DNA of 64,000 nt from Flavobacterium caseinilyticum. GTDB taxonomy: Bacteria; Bacteroidota; Bacteroidia; Flavobacteriales; Flavobacteriaceae. A model generated the notes under the pieces. It saw nothing but the letters and a program-made list of their open reading frames with translations. It ran no database searches and was not told the DNA's origin. Numbering within the stretch: the stretch's first letter is position 1; each line of letters opens with the position of its first letter. Location: assembly GCF_004349085.1 (NCBI RefSeq), contig NZ_SMFM01000005.1, positions 124,001-188,000 of the forward strand, in the 5' to 3' direction. Of the stretch, positions 30,165 to 36,963 are shown piece by piece. A program made the translations under genes and the position numbers.

Positions 30165-30289
30165 AGGATGTTAAATCGCAATGATAAAGCAATTTAGTGC
30201 CGAAAAGTAACTGAATCGTTGTGAAGAGCTTCACCGCTTTTGGAAAAAAGATTATTAAACGTGGTAGAAGTAACAAAAACAAAATTATA

Positions 30290-30658
30290 ATGAGCGATGC
30301 TAAAAAAATTGTTTTGGCTGAAGATAATTCTATTCTATTATTATTGCTGAAATTCCAATTGGAAAAAGAAGGGTATAAACTCTTAATTGCAGTGAACGGA
30401 AAGGAAGCGGTCGACTTGATAGAAGCACATAATCCAGATCTGATTTTAACTGATATTATGATGCCTTTTATTAGTGGATTAGAAGTCATTAGCCATGTAA
30501 GGAATAAGTTAAATCTAAAAACTCCGATCATCGTTTTTTCGTCAGCCGGACAAGAGGAAATGGTCCTTAAAGCGTTTGATTTGGGAGCTACCGATTTTAT
30601 GAGTAAACCTTTAAGCCCTAATGAACTCGTTATTCGAATAAAAAAATTATTTCGTTAG
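30290..30658 (+). CDS. Single-domain response regulator (CheY-like receiver)
   Basis: This 122-residue receiver domain has no output domain: acidic pocket Glu11/Asp12, phospho-acceptor Asp55 in LILTDIMMPF, and Lys106 in FMSKPLSP. The start at 30290 (MSDAKKIVLAEDN) begins the domain directly. An in-frame ATG at 30221 would add an unrelated basic extension. It heads the operon with a HEAT-repeat protein, a GT2 glycosyltransferase, an LTA-synthase-like enzyme and a YaiO-type protein. I infer that it controls polymer synthesis by protein contact. No histidine kinase is nearby. Confidence 0.88.
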   Translation: MSDAKKIVLAEDNSILLLLLKFQLEKEGYKLLIAVNGKEAVDLIEAHNPDLILTDIMMPFISGLEVISHVRNKLNLKTPIIVFSSAGQEEMVLKAFDLGATDFMSKPLSPNELVIRIKKLFR

Positions 30659-30687
30659 TATTTAACCTACTGCCCCAGGGAAACAAT

Positions 30688-31791
30688 ATGAATGAAACCT
30701 ACTATTTTATTGAATACTTTAAACAATCTCCACCTATAATTCAGGTGGCATGGATTTTTAGTGCCGTTTTTAGTGTATTTATAATTCCTTTAATCATTTA
30801 CCTAAATTATTTACGATGGCATTTGAGAAAAAATGAAATAGTGGTGGCTAAATATCAAGCAGAATACGAACAAGCTCTTGTACATTATTTGTATTCTGGA
30901 AATGAAGAGGAAGAAATCAGCTCAGAACAACAATTAATCATTGATAAATTAAAAAAATGCATTCTTACTCCTTTTAAAAGAAAGATTGTCATCTCAACTT
31001 TACTGAAGTTAAAAAATGAAATATCCGGAGAAGTGGCTCAATCTATAGAAAAACTATATTGCCAAAGCGGACTCATTGATTACACATTACCCAAACTGAC
31101 AAGTAAAAAATGGTATACTCTTGCTAAAGGAATTAGAGAACTCAGACAATTTCAGGTAAAAGAAGCGCATGATCAGGTTGCAAAACATATCAACCATCCG
31201 AGAAGACAAGTGCGTAAAGAAATGCAATTGTACATGGTTAATCTTTTTTATTTCGAGGGTTTAGATTTTCTGAATGTTTTAAAAACTCCTTTATCAGAGT
31301 GGGATCAGATTCAGTTATTGGAAGTACTGCAACGATTCGATAATCAAAAAATTCCTAATATTACCTCTTGGCTGAATTCCTCCAATGATTCCGTTGTGGT
31401 ATTCGTATTAAAACTGGCGAAAATCTACAATCAATTTGAGCAAAAAGAAGTCCTGATTGATATGCTCAATCATAAAAACAAAGATATAGTCGTAGAAGTG
31501 ATTTCAGTACTGTGCCATCTGGAAGTTTTTGAAGCCAAAGAAGTGTTGAAAAATACTTTTGAGCAACGAACTCAGGAAGAACAAATTGCCATTTTTAAAT
31601 TGATGGAAAATTTATATGAAATTAATGACGAACCTTTTTTACTGGATTATATATATCATGAAAACTTCGAAATTAAGGTATCGGCCCTAAAGATTTTGAA
31701 ATCAATAAATAGCTACAAGTTCAACTTTCTGAAGTCAAGCTCCTCCGAATCTGAATTTTTACAAATTGCTCATTTTATAGAAAATAATTAG
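30688..31791 (+). CDS. Membrane-anchored HEAT-repeat protein
   Basis: This 367-residue protein has an N-terminal transmembrane helix (about 18-42, ending in a YLRWHLRKNE basic patch). Helical pairs follow over about 95-360 that look like HEAT-type repeats, for example HPRRQVRKEMQLYMVNLFY and NKDIVVEVISVLCHLEVFEA. It is probably a cytoplasmic protein-binding scaffold. It lies 29 bases after the receiver gene and 2 bases before the glycosyltransferase gene, so I infer that it links the receiver to the synthase. Confidence 0.75.
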   Translation: MNETYYFIEYFKQSPPIIQVAWIFSAVFSVFIIPLIIYLNYLRWHLRKNEIVVAKYQAEYEQALVHYLYSGNEEEEISSEQQLIIDKLKKCILTPFKRKIVISTLLKLKNEISGEVAQSIEKLYCQSGLIDYTLPKLTSKKWYTLAKGIRELRQFQVKEAHDQVAKHINHPRRQVRKEMQLYMVNLFYFEGLDFLNVLKTPLSEWDQIQLLEVLQRFDNQKIPNITSWLNSSNDSVVVFVLKLAKIYNQFEQKEVLIDMLNHKNKDIVVEVISVLCHLEVFEAKEVLKNTFEQRTQEEQIAIFKLMENLYEINDEPFLLDYIYHENFEIKVSALKILKSINSYKFNFLKSSSSESEFLQIAHFIENN

Positions 31792-31793
31792 TT

Positions 31794-33224
31794 ATGGACA
31801 AAAGCACGGAGATCATTTTAATATCGATCATTCATTATTTATTTTTTGTTTACACCATAGCAGCAATAGGATCTTATATCATATTAGCCTTCATTTCTGC
31901 AATTGAGACCAAAGAATATATGAGGAAAAATAGCTTTGTGAACTACAAAGAAATACTAGCTTCGACTATTTCCCCTTCGATCTCGATCATTGCTCCGGCA
32001 TATAATGAGAGCTTAAATATTGTCGAAAATGTGCGCTCGTTACTCTCTAGCTATTATGTGAATTATGATGTCATTATAGTTAACGACGGAAGTACCGATA
32101 ATAGTTTGGAACAATTAATTGAAGCCTATGATCTAATCCCGGTAGAGTACCTTATCAATGAACAAATTCTGACAAAACCATTAAGAAATGGCGTTTTTAA
32201 ATCAACGAATCCTGCGTTTGAAAAACTGATAGTGGTTGATAAAGAAAACGGAGGAAAAGCAGATGCACTGAATCTTGGCCTCAATATCAGTACTCACAAA
32301 TATGTTGCCTGCATAGATGTCGATTGTTTGTTACTGGAAGAATCCCTTCAAAAAATGATAAAACCATTTCTTGAAGCGACTGATGCCAAAGTAATCGCGG
32401 CAGGAGGAGTAATTCGGATTTCGAATTCTTGCCTGGTTAAAGGAGGTAAATTACATGATGTAAATTTTCCTTCTAAATGGCTCGAAAAGGGACAAATTTT
32501 GGAATATTTAAGAGCCTTTTTACTGGGACGAATGGCGTGGAGCAGGCTTAATGGTTTGTTGGTAATTTCTGGTGCGTTTGGATTGTTCGATAAAAAAATA
32601 GCCATTAAAGTGGGCGGTTATGACACCAAAACCGTAGGAGAAGATATGGAAATTGTGGTGCGAATGCGCGGCTACATGGAAGAACAAAACATTAAATATA
32701 AAGTCGCTTATATCCCTGACCCTCTTTGCTGGACGGAGGCTCCGGACAATTACAAGACTTTTATTTCACAAAGAAACAGATGGACTCGCGGCACCATTGA
32801 AACCTTGCGAAGACATCGCAAAATAGGATTTAATCCAAAATACAATTCGCTGGGACTGTTAAGTTATCCCTACTGGTTTTTTTTCGAAAGAATGGCACCA
32901 ATTATCGAAGTTGCCGGTATCATTTATTTTGGAATCCTAATTGCACTGAACCACATCCGATGGGATTATTCTTTGGCCTTTATTCTTTTGGCCTATCTGT
33001 TTACGGTTCTATTTTCTATCGTGGCAATCATTACTGAAGAGCTTACATATCACCAATACAAAAAGAAAGGAACAGGGAAACATCTGGTAATGATTGCTTT
33101 CTTAGAACCTTTTGTAAATCACCCTTTTATTTTATATGCGGCTATTAGAGGAAACATAGATTATTATTTCAATAAAAATAAAAAATGGGGAGCTATGACA
33201 CGTAAAGGAATGAATAAAGCATAA
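31794..33224 (+). CDS. Processive family 2 glycosyltransferase (PgaC/YaiP-like)
   Basis: This 476-residue inner-membrane enzyme has an N-terminal helix (about 10-35), a cytoplasmic GT2 catalytic domain and several C-terminal helices (about 360-455). All processive-GT motifs are visible: Asp98 in VNDGSTDNS, D175-V-D177, the acceptor-site ED at 283-284 in TVGEDMEI, and the Q326-x-x-R-W330 motif. It should polymerise and extrude a beta-linked polysaccharide from a UDP-sugar. The sugar cannot be read from sequence. A YaiO-type outer-membrane protein in the same operon mirrors E. coli, where yaiP and yaiO lie close together. Confidence 0.88.
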   Translation: MDKSTEIILISIIHYLFFVYTIAAIGSYIILAFISAIETKEYMRKNSFVNYKEILASTISPSISIIAPAYNESLNIVENVRSLLSSYYVNYDVIIVNDGSTDNSLEQLIEAYDLIPVEYLINEQILTKPLRNGVFKSTNPAFEKLIVVDKENGGKADALNLGLNISTHKYVACIDVDCLLLEESLQKMIKPFLEATDAKVIAAGGVIRISNSCLVKGGKLHDVNFPSKWLEKGQILEYLRAFLLGRMAWSRLNGLLVISGAFGLFDKKIAIKVGGYDTKTVGEDMEIVVRMRGYMEEQNIKYKVAYIPDPLCWTEAPDNYKTFISQRNRWTRGTIETLRRHRKIGFNPKYNSLGLLSYPYWFFFERMAPIIEVAGIIYFGILIALNHIRWDYSLAFILLAYLFTVLFSIVAIITEELTYHQYKKKGTGKHLVMIAFLEPFVNHPFILYAAIRGNIDYYFNKNKKWGAMTRKGMNKA

Positions 33225-33244
33225 AACTATAAAATTACCGCTAG

Positions 33245-35635
33245 ATGAAAATGAAATTTACTTATAAAAACTATTTAGAATACATTTACGCAACTGTTTC
33301 ATTGACAATTGTTTTTTGCCTTTTAAGCTTGATTGAAGTATTCAAAAATTTTGAGATACTACTGTTTACTTATAAATTATTAAATGATATTTTTACTGGA
33401 TTATTAATAGGATTGCTCTTTTTTCCCTTGTATTTAGCATTGAAATATTTAAAGAACTCTTTGGGAATAATCGTCATCAGAGTCCTATTTTCTGTTATTG
33501 CACTCATCCAACTTGGTTTAATAGGATACAGCCTAACCACACATACCAATCTTGGAGCTGATCTTTTGGGATATTCGTTGAGTGATATGTATATCACGGT
33601 AACGGCCTCTTTATCATTATCAATCTTGCTATTTTTGCCTTTTATAATTCTACCGCTTGTATATCTTGGATTGATTTGGTTATTCCAATCTTTTGGACAT
33701 AAGATCAACACTATAATTATTGTTGTAGTTATAATTTTTTTTGGAGGTATCAATTTAATTATGGCTAGTAGCATTAAACCAGTTTCTCAAAATAAATTAA
33801 ATTTTTTAATTAGCGACATTATACGCAGCGAAAATGATAAGACATCGTCTAGCAAGGGCATCACTACTTTTAAGAAAGAATTCCCTTTAGAACAATCCGC
33901 TGAAAACACAAAAGATGTTCTTTCCCCATTTTTCAACATTCAAAAAGAAAAGCCAAATGTGGTTTTTATTATAATTGAAGGGTTGGGAAGTGATTTTACT
34001 GATGATGGTGAATACAAAGGGTTTACTCCCTACCTCGACGCATTGACTACGAAATCGCTGTATTGGGAAAATTTCGTTAGTAATGCTGGAAGAACATTTG
34101 GCGCACTGCCCTCGCTATTGGGTTCGTTACCTTTTGGAGAAGATGGCTTTATGGAATTGAACCCATTACCCAAACATAATTCGCTAATCAGTATTCTAAA
34201 AGAAAACGGATATACAACCAGTTACTACTCTGGCGATGAATCATCATTTGACAAAAAAAGTAATTTCTTAGAATATAATGGAATCGATAAAATCATAGAC
34301 ATTAATAAATTTGGACCTGGATATGAAAAAACAAAGGAGAATTCAGGCGGATTCTCTTGGGGTTTTCCCGATGCTGAGATATACCGAAAGACACTTTCTG
34401 AATTAAACAATAAAAAGGAGCCACGATTGGATATCATAATGACACTTACCAATCATGAACCTTTTGATTTTCCTTCCAAAAAAGTTTACCTAGAAAAAGT
34501 AGAACGAATTTTAAATACCAAATCGTCTTTTGAGCAAAATAAAATGAAGGAATATAAAGATATTTTGGCCTGCGTTTTATATACTGATAATTCTCTTCAA
34601 AGTTTTATGGAAGCGTACTCCAAAAGAGCAGATTATGCCAATACCATATTTATAATTACGGGAGATCATAGGTTAATTCCAGTTCCTCAAAAAGACAATT
34701 TATCCCGTTTTCATGTCCCGTTATATATTTACAGCCCAATGTTAAAGAAAACGGCAAAATTCAAATCCATTTCTTCACATACTGATGTAGCGCCAAGTTT
34801 AGTTTCTTTTTTAACGAATAACTACCAATTCAATAAAATAGAAAAAACCACTTGGCTAGGTCAAGGATTGGATACAGTAAGACATTTTAGAAATATCCAC
34901 AACATTCCATTGATGCGATATAAGGGAAGTATTAATGATTACATCTACAAAGATTTTTATTATTCGGATGGAAATCTTTTCAAAATTGATGAAGACTTCA
35001 ATATTAGTGAAGCCGATGATGACATGAGGGAAACCATAACCGGCTCCTTTAATGACTTCAAAAAATTAAACTCCTACTTAACCACCAAAAATAAAATAAC
35101 CAAAGTTGCTTCCAGCTTTATAAAACCTGTTTATGCATTTACACCTGCGCAACTTTCGACCATAAAAAAATTAACAAAAGGACTCGATCGCGATCAAATT
35201 TTCTTTCTTGCCAGAGATTTGGCCTTTAAAAAAGAGCGTGAAAATGCAAGATTATTATGCAATTATGTTTTGAATGATCTTCCTAATTATGGCGATGTCA
35301 GAACTTTGAAAGGAAGAACATTGGCATGGGATGGCGACTATAAAAATGCAGAAAAGGAGTTGCTTGAAGTCATAAGCAGAACACCCTTTTATGGGGACTC
35401 ATACTTAGCATTAATGGATGTGTATTGGTGGTCAGGGAAGAACAAAAAAGCAGTCGAAATAGGTAAAAAGGCACTACAAAATCAGATAGTTGATTCGGAA
35501 TTGGGATATAAATTGGCTCAAGCCTACAACAGAATGAGCAATTTTAAAGCTTCGAATACTACGATTGACAGTCTTTTACTTGTACATCCTGAAAATAAAG
35601 AATACTCAAATTTTAAAAAATCCTTAAAAAAATGA
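33245..35635 (+). CDS. LTA-synthase-like alkaline-phosphatase-superfamily enzyme with C-terminal TPRs
   Basis: This 796-residue protein has five transmembrane helices (about 10-175), an extracytoplasmic sulfatase/phosphotransferase domain (about 235-520), and a C-terminal tetratricopeptide region (about 645-796). Metal and catalytic residues align with LtaS: Glu245 (VFIIIEG), nucleophile Thr284 (AGRTFGALPS), and Asp474/His475 (ITGDHRLIP). Such enzymes move phosphoglycerol or phosphoethanolamine onto glycans. Gram-negative bacteria lack lipoteichoic acid, so decoration of the polymer made by the upstream GT2 is inferred. The TPR tail resembles the N-terminal TPRs of the next gene, with which it overlaps by 4 bases. 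Confidence 0.82.
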   Translation: MKMKFTYKNYLEYIYATVSLTIVFCLLSLIEVFKNFEILLFTYKLLNDIFTGLLIGLLFFPLYLALKYLKNSLGIIVIRVLFSVIALIQLGLIGYSLTTHTNLGADLLGYSLSDMYITVTASLSLSILLFLPFIILPLVYLGLIWLFQSFGHKINTIIIVVVIIFFGGINLIMASSIKPVSQNKLNFLISDIIRSENDKTSSSKGITTFKKEFPLEQSAENTKDVLSPFFNIQKEKPNVVFIIIEGLGSDFTDDGEYKGFTPYLDALTTKSLYWENFVSNAGRTFGALPSLLGSLPFGEDGFMELNPLPKHNSLISILKENGYTTSYYSGDESSFDKKSNFLEYNGIDKIIDINKFGPGYEKTKENSGGFSWGFPDAEIYRKTLSELNNKKEPRLDIIMTLTNHEPFDFPSKKVYLEKVERILNTKSSFEQNKMKEYKDILACVLYTDNSLQSFMEAYSKRADYANTIFIITGDHRLIPVPQKDNLSRFHVPLYIYSPMLKKTAKFKSISSHTDVAPSLVSFLTNNYQFNKIEKTTWLGQGLDTVRHFRNIHNIPLMRYKGSINDYIYKDFYYSDGNLFKIDEDFNISEADDDMRETITGSFNDFKKLNSYLTTKNKITKVASSFIKPVYAFTPAQLSTIKKLTKGLDRDQIFFLARDLAFKKERENARLLCNYVLNDLPNYGDVRTLKGRTLAWDGDYKNAEKELLEVISRTPFYGDSYLALMDVYWWSGKNKKAVEIGKKALQNQIVDSELGYKLAQAYNRMSNFKASNTTIDSLLLVHPENKEYSNFKKSLKK

Positions 35636-36897
35636 TTTCAAAAATAGTTATTAAAATCACCTATATAATTGCATTCTTAAGTGTATTTCAAATGTCTGGA
35701 CAAGAAATTAAATACAACGGAGATCCAGACGCTTCTTTCGAGAAAGCCCGATACTTAGCCTTTAATCAGCAACGTAAACAAGCCCAGGATACCTTATTAT
35801 TTATTTTAACTAAATATCCTGATTATCATGATATTCGCTCCTTTTTGGCCAGCACTTACTCGTGGGATGGCGATTATAAAAAAGCAAGAAAAGAATTTGA
35901 TTATATTTTAAAAAAAGAAAAAGAGGACAGAAACATTTGGATGGCCGCCATCAAAAATGAAATTTGGGCTGACATGCCTTATGTTGCTCTTGAAATGACT
36001 GACACCGCTTTAAAAACAATTCCTAATGATCCAGAGCTTTTGTACTTGAAGGCCAGCGCACAAGAAAAGACAAATAATCCATTAGAAGCATTGAGCACAC
36101 TTGACGCCGTACTGAAAGAAAACCCGAATGATCAGAACGCCAAAGAATACAAAGCGAGCTTAAAAAATAGTTTGAGCCAAAATACAATTGGTCTTACCTC
36201 TTCCTTGGATATTTATTCTGATGTTTTTGATCCGATGCAATATTACGGCCTCAGCTACAGACGGTTAACTAAATACGGAAGTGTCATCGGCAAGGTAAAT
36301 TTCAACAGACGATTCAATGAAAATGGGTTGCAGTACGAAATCGATTTATACCCTAAGATTGCAAATGGACTTTATGGTTACGTAAATGTTGGCTTGTCAA
36401 AATCGTTTCTATTCCCGGATATCAGGTTTGGTGCAGAATTGTATAAATCTTTACCAAAAAGCTTTGAAGTTTCGTTAGGACTGCGAACTCTAAAATACAG
36501 TACGACAACCAATATATATACTGGATCGTTGGGTTGGTACACCGGAAACAGTTATTTAGCTTTCCGTCCCTATTTCACTCCGGGAGAAACAGGTACCAGC
36601 AAATCGGGTACGGTTACCTACCGAAAATACCGCAGTGATGCCGAGAATTTTTTAGGGGTATCGCTTAGTGTGGGTTACTCACCGGAAATTAATCAATTCA
36701 ACATCAACCAAGATGCGTCAGAATTCGTTGATTTAAAGGCACAACGAATTAATTTTTCTTATTTTTTTACTTCTTCCAATAAACAAAACGCATGGGGAAC
36801 GCAATTCGGTGTTGCACACCAGGAAATAATCTTTGATCAAGGGAATTACTTTTGGATTTACTCCGTTGGGTTATCATGGGACTTGAAATTCAAGTAA
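35632..36897 (+). CDS. YaiO-family outer-membrane beta-barrel protein with N-terminal TPRs
   Basis: This 421-residue exported protein has a hydrophobic signal region (about 1-24, ending FQMSGQ), a TPR domain (about 30-180) and a C-terminal beta-barrel of alternating aromatic strands (about 185-421, final strand WIYSVGLSWDLKFK). It fits the YaiO family of outer-membrane proteins. TPR plus barrel is also the plan of polysaccharide export porins such as PgaA. I infer that it exports the operon's polysaccharide. Its ATG overlaps the upstream stop (ATGA), suggesting translational coupling. Confidence 0.82.
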   Translation: MISKIVIKITYIIAFLSVFQMSGQEIKYNGDPDASFEKARYLAFNQQRKQAQDTLLFILTKYPDYHDIRSFLASTYSWDGDYKKARKEFDYILKKEKEDRNIWMAAIKNEIWADMPYVALEMTDTALKTIPNDPELLYLKASAQEKTNNPLEALSTLDAVLKENPNDQNAKEYKASLKNSLSQNTIGLTSSLDIYSDVFDPMQYYGLSYRRLTKYGSVIGKVNFNRRFNENGLQYEIDLYPKIANGLYGYVNVGLSKSFLFPDIRFGAELYKSLPKSFEVSLGLRTLKYSTTTNIYTGSLGWYTGNSYLAFRPYFTPGETGTSKSGTVTYRKYRSDAENFLGVSLSVGYSPEINQFNINQDASEFVDLKAQRINFSYFFTSSNKQNAWGTQFGVAHQEIIFDQGNYFWIYSVGLSWDLKFK

Positions 36898-36930: not shown

Positions 36931-36963
36931 TTTGGAGCATTACTTTCAAAAAGACTATCTTTG
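36931..36963 (+). promoter_or_regulatory. Promoter of the DEAD-box helicase gene
   Basis: TTTG (36931-36934) and TATCTTTG (36956-36963) are 21 bases apart, both exact consensus matches, with the ATG 17 bases downstream. This placement supports the start at 36980 rather than an in-frame ATG at 36926 upstream of the promoter. Confidence 0.75.

Follow-up and report, generated by a model that had tools for sequence, protein, structure and literature searches.

The type II Bcs system of Escherichia coli (BcsA-BcsG-BcsC) makes phosphoethanolamine cellulose with a family 2 glycosyltransferase (GT2) synthase, an inner-membrane transferase that has about five helices and a periplasmic catalytic domain, and an exporter built of tetratricopeptide repeats (TPR) and a beta-barrel. 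BcsG is reported to be a phosphoethanolamine transferase with five transmembrane helices that is held beside BcsA, and the TPRs of BcsC to bind a putative cello-oligosaccharide (PMC11379886). Synthase-dependent polysaccharides are described as frequently switched by cyclic di-GMP (c-di-GMP) (PMC12802240). Here we analyze a 64,000-nucleotide stretch of Flavobacterium caseinilyticum DNA (hereafter the window), in which a five-gene operon at positions 30290-36897 of the + strand encodes, in order, a lone receiver, a HEAT-repeat protein, a GT2, a lipoteichoic acid (LTA) synthase-like transferase, and a YaiO-family protein. The operon shares the three Bcs components but differs in having receiver and HEAT genes, TPR domains on both the transferase and YaiO, and GT2-transferase fusions in relatives; its five proteins lack BcsB and PilZ domains, and the genome gave no GGDEF match. 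We conclude that it is probably a BcsA-BcsG-BcsC-like two-module surface-polysaccharide system of Bacteroidota, with two-component control in place of c-di-GMP control. Computation established the gene set and its order, the fusions, the exchange of modules, the intact active sites, the TPR kinship, and the missing GGDEF match.

Other described systems resemble parts of the operon. In the Pga/Hms system for poly-N-acetylglucosamine (PNAG), PgaD is the c-di-GMP-binding partner; the operon shares with this system a GT2 whose best curated match is PgaC and a TPR-barrel exporter, whereas its scores fall far under the PgaC and PgaA cut-offs, its five proteins contain no deacetylase domain, and receiver and HEAT genes stand in the place of PgaD. 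E. coli yaiO, near which lies yaiP, presumably a GT2 gene, encodes a barrel of the same family, to which the operon adds the receiver, HEAT, and transferase context. The LTA synthase and OpgB enzymes share with the operon transferase the sulfatase fold, the E-T-H-DH site, and about five membrane helices, but the operon enzyme has a C-terminal TPR domain, a different operon context, and phosphatidylethanolamine (PE) as its probable donor. For control, the nearest parallel is Myxococcus EpsW-EpsZ, where a lone receiver is described as activating polysaccharide synthesis post-translationally via an enzyme, as we propose here too; EpsW targets the phosphoglycosyl transferase that initiates a Wzx/Wzy pathway, whereas here the target would be a processive GT2 with a HEAT partner (PMC12802240). 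Titles and abstracts in the open literature, with subscription papers and preprints outside this scope, gave no publication on the five-gene set among the matches listed; one of these matches concerns, by its title and the opening of its abstract, the Lipocone superfamily.

The five intact open reading frames (ORFs) in the ORF list of the window are separated by 29, 2, 20, and -4 bases, confirming to the base the coordinates and gaps of a preliminary description made from the sequence alone. Pfam domains scored above their cut-offs in four of the five proteins (PF00072, PF00535, PF00884, and PF19413). The first gene (30290-30658, +; an in-frame GTG at 30221 is the first start given by the ORF tool) encodes a receiver (REC) of 122 aa with no output domain (PF00072, 95.8 bits, residues 7-117) and with the phosphorylation-site residues E11-D12, D55, and K106 in place; it is a single-domain response regulator, as had been described. 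The third gene (31794-33224, +) encodes a processive-type GT2 of 476 aa (PF00535, 79.5 bits; PF13632 and PF13641 also over cut-off) with hydrophobic segments near residues 7-25, 367-385, and 395-413, and at 431-449 at a lower threshold. Its motifs D98, D175/D177, G282-E-D284, and Q326-R-x-R-W330 were invariant in an alignment of 15 sequences, bearing out the claim that all catalytic motifs are present.

The second gene (30688-31791, +) encodes a protein of 367 aa that the preliminary description took for a membrane-anchored HEAT scaffold. An AlphaFold2 model built on an alignment of 80 of 102 HEAT proteins was helical throughout, with a solenoid following a long helix at residues 16-69 (pLDDT 89.8), and this ruled out a chance call of HEAT repeats. 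Within the long helix lies a membrane segment (residues 20-38; 30745-30801, +; hydropathy 2.39 over 19 residues), so that the assignment holds though HEAT_2 reached only 23.2 bits against a cut-off of 27.7. The solenoid is expected on the cytoplasmic side. Foldseek returned only generic ARM, HEAT, and alphaRep solenoids, which point to no function. As a side observation, HEAT proteins of Maribacter/Zobellia-type operons carry a long tail (L033:7348-9927, L034:9560-12355, L035:8548-10629, and the HEAT genes of L112-L140). These tails were acidic in all six measured and often end in K-L-N-G or K-K-N-G; a DFLPIV-like motif, present at one to three copies per tail in 24 of the 26 proteins, looks like a repeated docking motif. 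Its 45 copies in total compare with a mean of 2.3 and a maximum of 7 when the tails are shuffled.

To measure conservation, we used an even draw of 198 genomes from the phylum and 80 named loci chosen by transferase similarity. Keeping the longest of overlapping ORFs hid some receivers in the counts of order, gene sets, and kinases; receiver-proximity searches made without that step recovered them. The HEAT protein occurred in 29 of the 198 genomes (E<=1e-5), and all 32 matches adjoin a GT2 of the operon's family. A lone receiver lay within 7.5 kb of 30 of the 31 HEAT genes listed and directly beside 19 of them; the exception, L051, is at a contig end, and the L059 HEAT gene fell below the score limit of this search. 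With 46 receiver matches in the window genome, 10 of them counted in open frames of at most 160 aa, we estimate chance proximity at around 4% per gene. Searched independently with the best five candidates kept per genome, the transferase gave at least 25 matches in 23 genomes (E<=1e-40), and 23 of the 25 listed had a GT2 match within 6 kb (best eight per genome); the two others were G093:C41 and, close to the start of its contig, G081:C20.

The named loci kept the genes together, the outcome on which the preliminary description had staked its reading. All five genes stand in the window order in 64 of the 80 loci, and 8 of the 16 remaining end at a contig end. Five further loci carry all five genes rearranged, as HEAT-[GT2-transferase]-YaiO-DUF4838-receiver (L082, L107, L108) or transferase-YaiO-kinase-receiver-HEAT-GT2 (L111, L120). 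The last three are L094, L105, and L128, described below. As a variant that lacks the transferase, L048, L050, L052, and L054 carry receiver-YaiO-HEAT-GT2. In 70 five-gene sets the median gaps were 15.5, 2, 10.5, and -1 bases. The five-gene arrangement is far from chance, and the genomic support for a widespread system is strong.

The fourth gene (33245-35635, +) encodes a transferase of 796 aa (PF00884, 111.7 bits) whose relatives in the PDB are 3lxq, 2w8d (LTA synthase 2), and 4uoo. A membrane region of about five helices by hydropathy (residues 14-174; 33284-33766, +) precedes a sulfatase-fold catalytic domain (residues 237-521; 33953-34807, +) with E245, T284, H404, D474, and H475. The E-T/S-H-D-H set is kept in 95 of 97 transferases, with Thr at the nucleophile position in 80 and Ser in 15; this count includes the window and takes two genomes twice each (L031/L067 and L047/L108). 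The PF00884 domain, the E/T/DH metal site, and the alignment to 3lxq place the protein among the sulfatase-superfamily transferases, and it scored 50.8 bits against a cut-off of 970 for the strict lipoteichoic acid synthase equivalog NF053595. The LTA-synthase-like assignment with an intact Glu/Thr/Asp-His site thus stands, but it overlooked a C-terminal TPR domain (residues about 648-796; 35186-35632, +; TPR_19 at 23.9 bits, just under its cut-off of 25). We found that this domain is related to the TPR domain of the neighboring YaiO, a new finding: the two are 31% identical over 148 residues without a gap, and the YaiO TPR is the only other match of the transferase TPR in the genome at E<0.005 (2.5e-16; the next is 0.007). 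One further transferase ORF, in Polaribacter sp. MSW5 (L128:8959-11389), is in three pieces within an otherwise complete operon of all five genes, reflecting either a real break or a sequencing error.

The group that the transferase transfers had been described as phosphoglycerol or phosphoethanolamine. The transferase type is upheld, and of the two groups we favor phosphoethanolamine as the likelier substituent, because the window genome (3.84 Mb, 99.99% complete) has psd and a pssA-like gene, whereas no recognized pgsA was found in it. It has two CDP-alcohol transferases only; the pssA-like one narrowly missed its cut-off (102.6 bits against 107), and the other is nearest to inositol-phosphate synthases. 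Phosphoglycerol is the less likely choice but a real contender, since among solved structures and curated families the transferase comes closest to the LtaS and OpgB types, which are phosphoglycerol transferases; it is this complement of lipid genes that tells against it.

The fifth gene (35632-36897, +) encodes a protein of 421 aa that belongs to the YaiO family by PF19413 (215.6 bits) and TIGR04390 (184.6 bits, cut-off 32), as had been proposed. Its AlphaFold2 model (alignment of 64 of 104 YaiO proteins; pLDDT 89.8) opens with a signal helix, followed by a TPR solenoid of nine helices (residues 32-181; 35725-36174, +), expected on the periplasmic side, and a predicted 14-stranded beta-barrel (residues 184-420; 36181-36891, +). 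Foldseek placed the BcsC structures 9b8a and 9b8h at ranks 1 and 2 (E 7e-11 and 1.4e-9; TMq 0.46-0.47) and PelBC 9h80 at rank 3. The model is therefore of the BcsC-like TPR and barrel exporter fold, yet a shared fold does not make YaiO a BcsC. By analogy, the short solenoids of the transferase and YaiO may jointly replace the single 19-TPR solenoid of BcsC. In a whole-word search of the YaiO literature, the titles and abstract beginnings of the matches listed mention no polysaccharide role. Beside a DUF4838 gene at L043 (6404-9445), in an operon with no transferase labeled, we observed a 1013-aa YaiO with a very long TPR region.

Two results bear on how synthesis might be controlled. First, no GGDEF match was found in the window genome by a search that was positive in 8 of 14 control genomes, leaving out the c-di-GMP control that is a feature of Bcs; among the 198 genomes, GGDEF occurred in 3 of the 29 that are HEAT-positive (G004, G093, G097) versus 105 of the 169 others. 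Second, kinases precede the receiver in related loci. In 34 of the 70 five-gene sets the ORF directly before the receiver is kinase-related and at least 200 aa long, as labeled by BLAST match to a few kinases from these loci, and in 5 more it is a short ORF matching the kinase set, two of which read as lone Hpt. Among the kinases scanned with Pfam, full kinase-REC-Hpt proteins are found at L048 and L040, and REC-Hpt on kinase pieces at L006, L010, and L014. Across 21 aligned receivers of the operon, E11 and K106 were invariant and D55 was present in at least 90%, with E at that position in L055. Because REC/Hpt kinases precede the receiver in related loci, it is probably the end of a phosphorelay. 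In two loci (L088:5686-6054 and L126:3395-3811), the short ORF before the receiver appears by eye to be a lone Hpt replacing the hybrid kinase.

Lone receivers are reported to work either in phosphorelays or through protein contact (PMC12802240), and the operon receiver might accordingly touch no enzyme and serve as a phosphate sink or a step in a relay, through which expression of the operon or other genes is controlled. Hpt domains beside the operon receiver in several loci fit such a role, and a kept transcription factor may be among the unlabeled neighbors. We regard this explanation as unlikely, since the receiver stays near HEAT-GT2 across families and swaps together with HEAT-GT2. Of the partial correlations across the 69 sets compared (below), the one between receiver and GT2 is also the highest. 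That value was 0.72 over the 69 sets and 0.58 in each of the short- and long-HEAT clades; for receiver and HEAT it was 0.40 over all sets and 0.25 and 0.27 in the clades, and for HEAT and GT2 it was 0.60 among the short-HEAT sets and 0.16 among the long-HEAT ones. The preliminary description had synthesis switched by contact between the phosphorylated receiver and the HEAT protein; such contact alone is not favored, as receiver and GT2 covary more. Such mirror-tree values are indirect and do not single out HEAT as the partner of the receiver, and the simplest reading would be one complex of receiver, HEAT, and GT2.

Sequence comparison indicates that the operon consists of a receiver-HEAT-GT2 module and a transferase-YaiO module, which can be exchanged. 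Pairwise distances were compared in 69 of the 70 five-gene sets, leaving out one identical transferase. In the 43 sets with a short HEAT protein, receiver, HEAT, and GT2 distances correlated with one another at r 0.91-0.96 and transferase with YaiO at 0.86, versus 0.41-0.65 across the blocks; in the 26 long-HEAT sets the values were 0.75-0.81 for receiver-HEAT-GT2 and 0.83 for transferase-YaiO. Exchange is seen in single loci. L042 and L087 have front modules distant from the window (identity 39-40% for the receiver, 23-26% for HEAT, and 50% for GT2), whereas that of Flavivirga L093 is close (74%, 51%, and 76%), and their transferase and YaiO are about equally related to those of the window (49% and 56-58% for L042/L087, 50% and 60% for L093). 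In the transferase tree L042/L087 are sister to L093, and four fused Flavobacterium loci (L047, L082, L094, L107) group with the unfused L080. The GT2 data rejected both groupings, L042+L087+L093 (p 2.3e-7) and the fused loci with L080 (p 1e-4). The transferase data in turn rejected a constraint that separates the window-type rows from L042/L087 and the fused group, which lowered the log-likelihood by 440 (p-AU 1e-50). They also rejected a clade of the fused loci that leaves out L080 (p 0.025). The GT2 tree rejected neither the window-type rows with L042/L087 (p 0.145) nor with the fused group (p 0.31). These trees are of the quick type on 29 chosen rows with long branches, and the tested groups were named after the trees had been seen. 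The conflict rules out one indivisible block and, together with the reversed order of the two modules in Lacihabitans, places the joint between GT2 and transferase. The operon as a single system of synthesis, decoration, and export with a receiver at its head survives from the preliminary description, but its one fixed block does not.

Separable modules could also mean two independent functions under one promoter: a GT2 regulated by the receiver, and a transferase-YaiO pair that alters and positions some other envelope molecule, say lipopolysaccharide or a lipid. The separate block histories in the short-HEAT clade and the foreign front modules of L042/L087 and the fused group are compatible with this, as are the loci in which transferase-YaiO precedes the front module (L111/L120) and L105, where transferase-YaiO has typA/bipA as its upstream neighbor and the 5.6 kb out to the contig start show no GT2. 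We nevertheless consider independence improbable. GT2 and transferase form a single ORF in ten loci (L036, L039, L040, L041, L044, L075, L082, L094, L107, and L108, with L047 and L108 taken as one genome), and the fusions fall into at least two separate GT2 lineages; a third rests on the L075 ORF, from a single contig of a metagenome-assembled genome and a possible assembly artifact. Exchanged or reversed modules still adjoin (L042, L087, L082, L107, L108, L111, L120). Exchange shows separable histories, and fusion and lasting adjacency suggest joint work. On whether GT2 and transferase act on unrelated substrates, which the preliminary description named as a refutation of the single system, the fusions bear indirectly.

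The likeness to pga and yaiP-yaiO parts that had been noted is borne out by the YaiO family and by the PgaC/IcaA equivalog TIGR03937 as the best NCBIfam match of the GT2, but not by the cut-offs for PgaC (125.8 bits against 422.3) or for the PgaA exporter TIGR03939 in YaiO (21 bits against 366.65). The GT2 is not CelA either (CelA/BcsA equivalog TIGR03030, 40.3 bits against 699.1), and the statement that the set lacks a deacetylase is supported by Pfam across the five proteins. A diverged PNAG or cellulose system, which that best match and the BcsC-like fold of YaiO might suggest, is thus very improbable: all three scores are far under the curated cut-offs, none of the five proteins has a deacetylase, BcsB, or PilZ domain, and the genome gave no GGDEF match. 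On the cut-offs, membership in either system is ruled out. L043, L056, and L060 carry a DUF4838 protein, which in L056 and L060 has weak GH20- or NAGLU-type N-terminal similarity under the Pfam cut-offs; with the PgaC-like score of the GT2, these variants hint at an amino-sugar polymer, no more.

We propose the following model for the two-module polysaccharide system, in which we infer the polymer, the donor, the contact surface of the receiver, the direction of control, and export. The receiver, the membrane-anchored HEAT protein, and GT2 would form a receiver-regulated polymerase. A phosphorelay would phosphorylate the lone receiver, which would then dock from the cytoplasmic side onto the assembly of HEAT and GT2 and alter the rate of glycan synthesis, replacing c-di-GMP control. 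The transferase and YaiO would decorate and export: the transferase would use a membrane lipid as donor of a phospho head group, with phosphoethanolamine from PE as the likeliest choice, and attach that group to the emerging chain, and its TPR domain and the related TPR of YaiO would guide the chain to the YaiO barrel. A bolder form of this model, to which we give somewhat less than even weight, is that Bacteroidota without c-di-GMP use a distinct class of regulated polysaccharide synthase, in which a lone receiver in its phosphorylated state, carried on a HEAT scaffold in the membrane, directly switches a processive GT2 allosterically. The decoration-export cassette coupled to it would be exchangeable, with its periplasmic TPR solenoid shared out between a transferase in the inner membrane and a barrel in the outer.

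Several observations weigh against the proposed system. On control, no kinase is found among the genes flanking the operon in the window, so the receiver could act on something else; 31 of the 70 five-gene sets, the window included, have no kinase- or Hpt-like ORF labeled directly before the receiver (at least 4 of these show a weaker match), and no receiver is labeled in the L094 locus. Descent confounds the association of HEAT with the absence of GGDEF, which would show only that c-di-GMP is not needed. On the modules, HEAT-YaiO (0.81) and GT2-YaiO (0.84) correlate as highly as pairs within blocks in the 26 long-HEAT sets. On decoration, several operons have no transferase, and decoration would not be universal because the L033 and L035 transferases, which read D-S-K-S-H and D-S-S-S-H, lack the active-site residues and look inactive. 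One CDP-alcohol transferase (L142) has no assignment, so that PG synthesis may occur, and the PgaC-like score of the GT2 leaves the sugar unfixed. On export, the highest VIA-align matches of YaiO are FadL/TodX types, MamA, OmpG, and CymA, which match barrel or TPR singly, with no polysaccharide exporter, BcsC included, among its best 50 rows; and its 14 predicted strands are fewer than the 16 of the BcsC and PgaA barrels.

The flanking genes and variant loci complete the picture. In the two loci with altered transferases (L033:11334-13757 and L035:4733-7114), E is changed to D, GDH to GSH, and the HxPF His is lost in otherwise complete operons; these proteins are possibly pseudoenzymes with a structural role. 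By Pfam, the window operon is preceded by genes for a methionine sulfoxide reductase, an ABC ATPase, and a DUF2400 protein and followed by one for a DEAD-box helicase; a lactonase-type propeller also lies downstream. Bacteroidetes promoters have the form TTG / TAnnTTTG, and a TATCTTTG box (36956-36963, +) with TTG 21 bases upstream of it precedes the helicase gene, which suggests a separate transcription unit and an operon end at YaiO. The nearest named relatives of the transferase are from Flavobacterium (83% in F. psychrolimnae). In DUF4838 variants the receiver lies at the 3' end, right after DUF4838 (L047:2443-2805, L056:3902-4273, L060:4462-4824), a placement repeated at L082:15013-15375, L107:14995-15378, and L108:15006-15368. 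Close Flavobacterium relatives (L061, L062, L067, L097) have a second operon, HEAT-GT2-YaiO-DUF4838, directly downstream of YaiO; the window genome has a single HEAT match. Other classes have, with the HEAT-GT2 operon, a conserved family of about 390 aa whose N-terminus appears by eye to carry a hydrophobic segment and of which four members, scanned with Pfam, matched nothing (L036:13865-15049, L038:7224-8375, L039:5843-7030, L045:12655-13827, L046:6311-7498, L049:12613-13788, L058:10770-11960); a search for it in the window genome, run without a positive control, was empty.

Such polymers are often switched by c-di-GMP, yet the window genome shows no GGDEF enzyme to make it. The operon would be a compact answer, with named partners, to the control of polymers in Bacteroidota without GGDEF, and the natural series of exchanges, with foreign fronts, fusions, reversed order, and 3' receivers, reveals which of its parts belong together.

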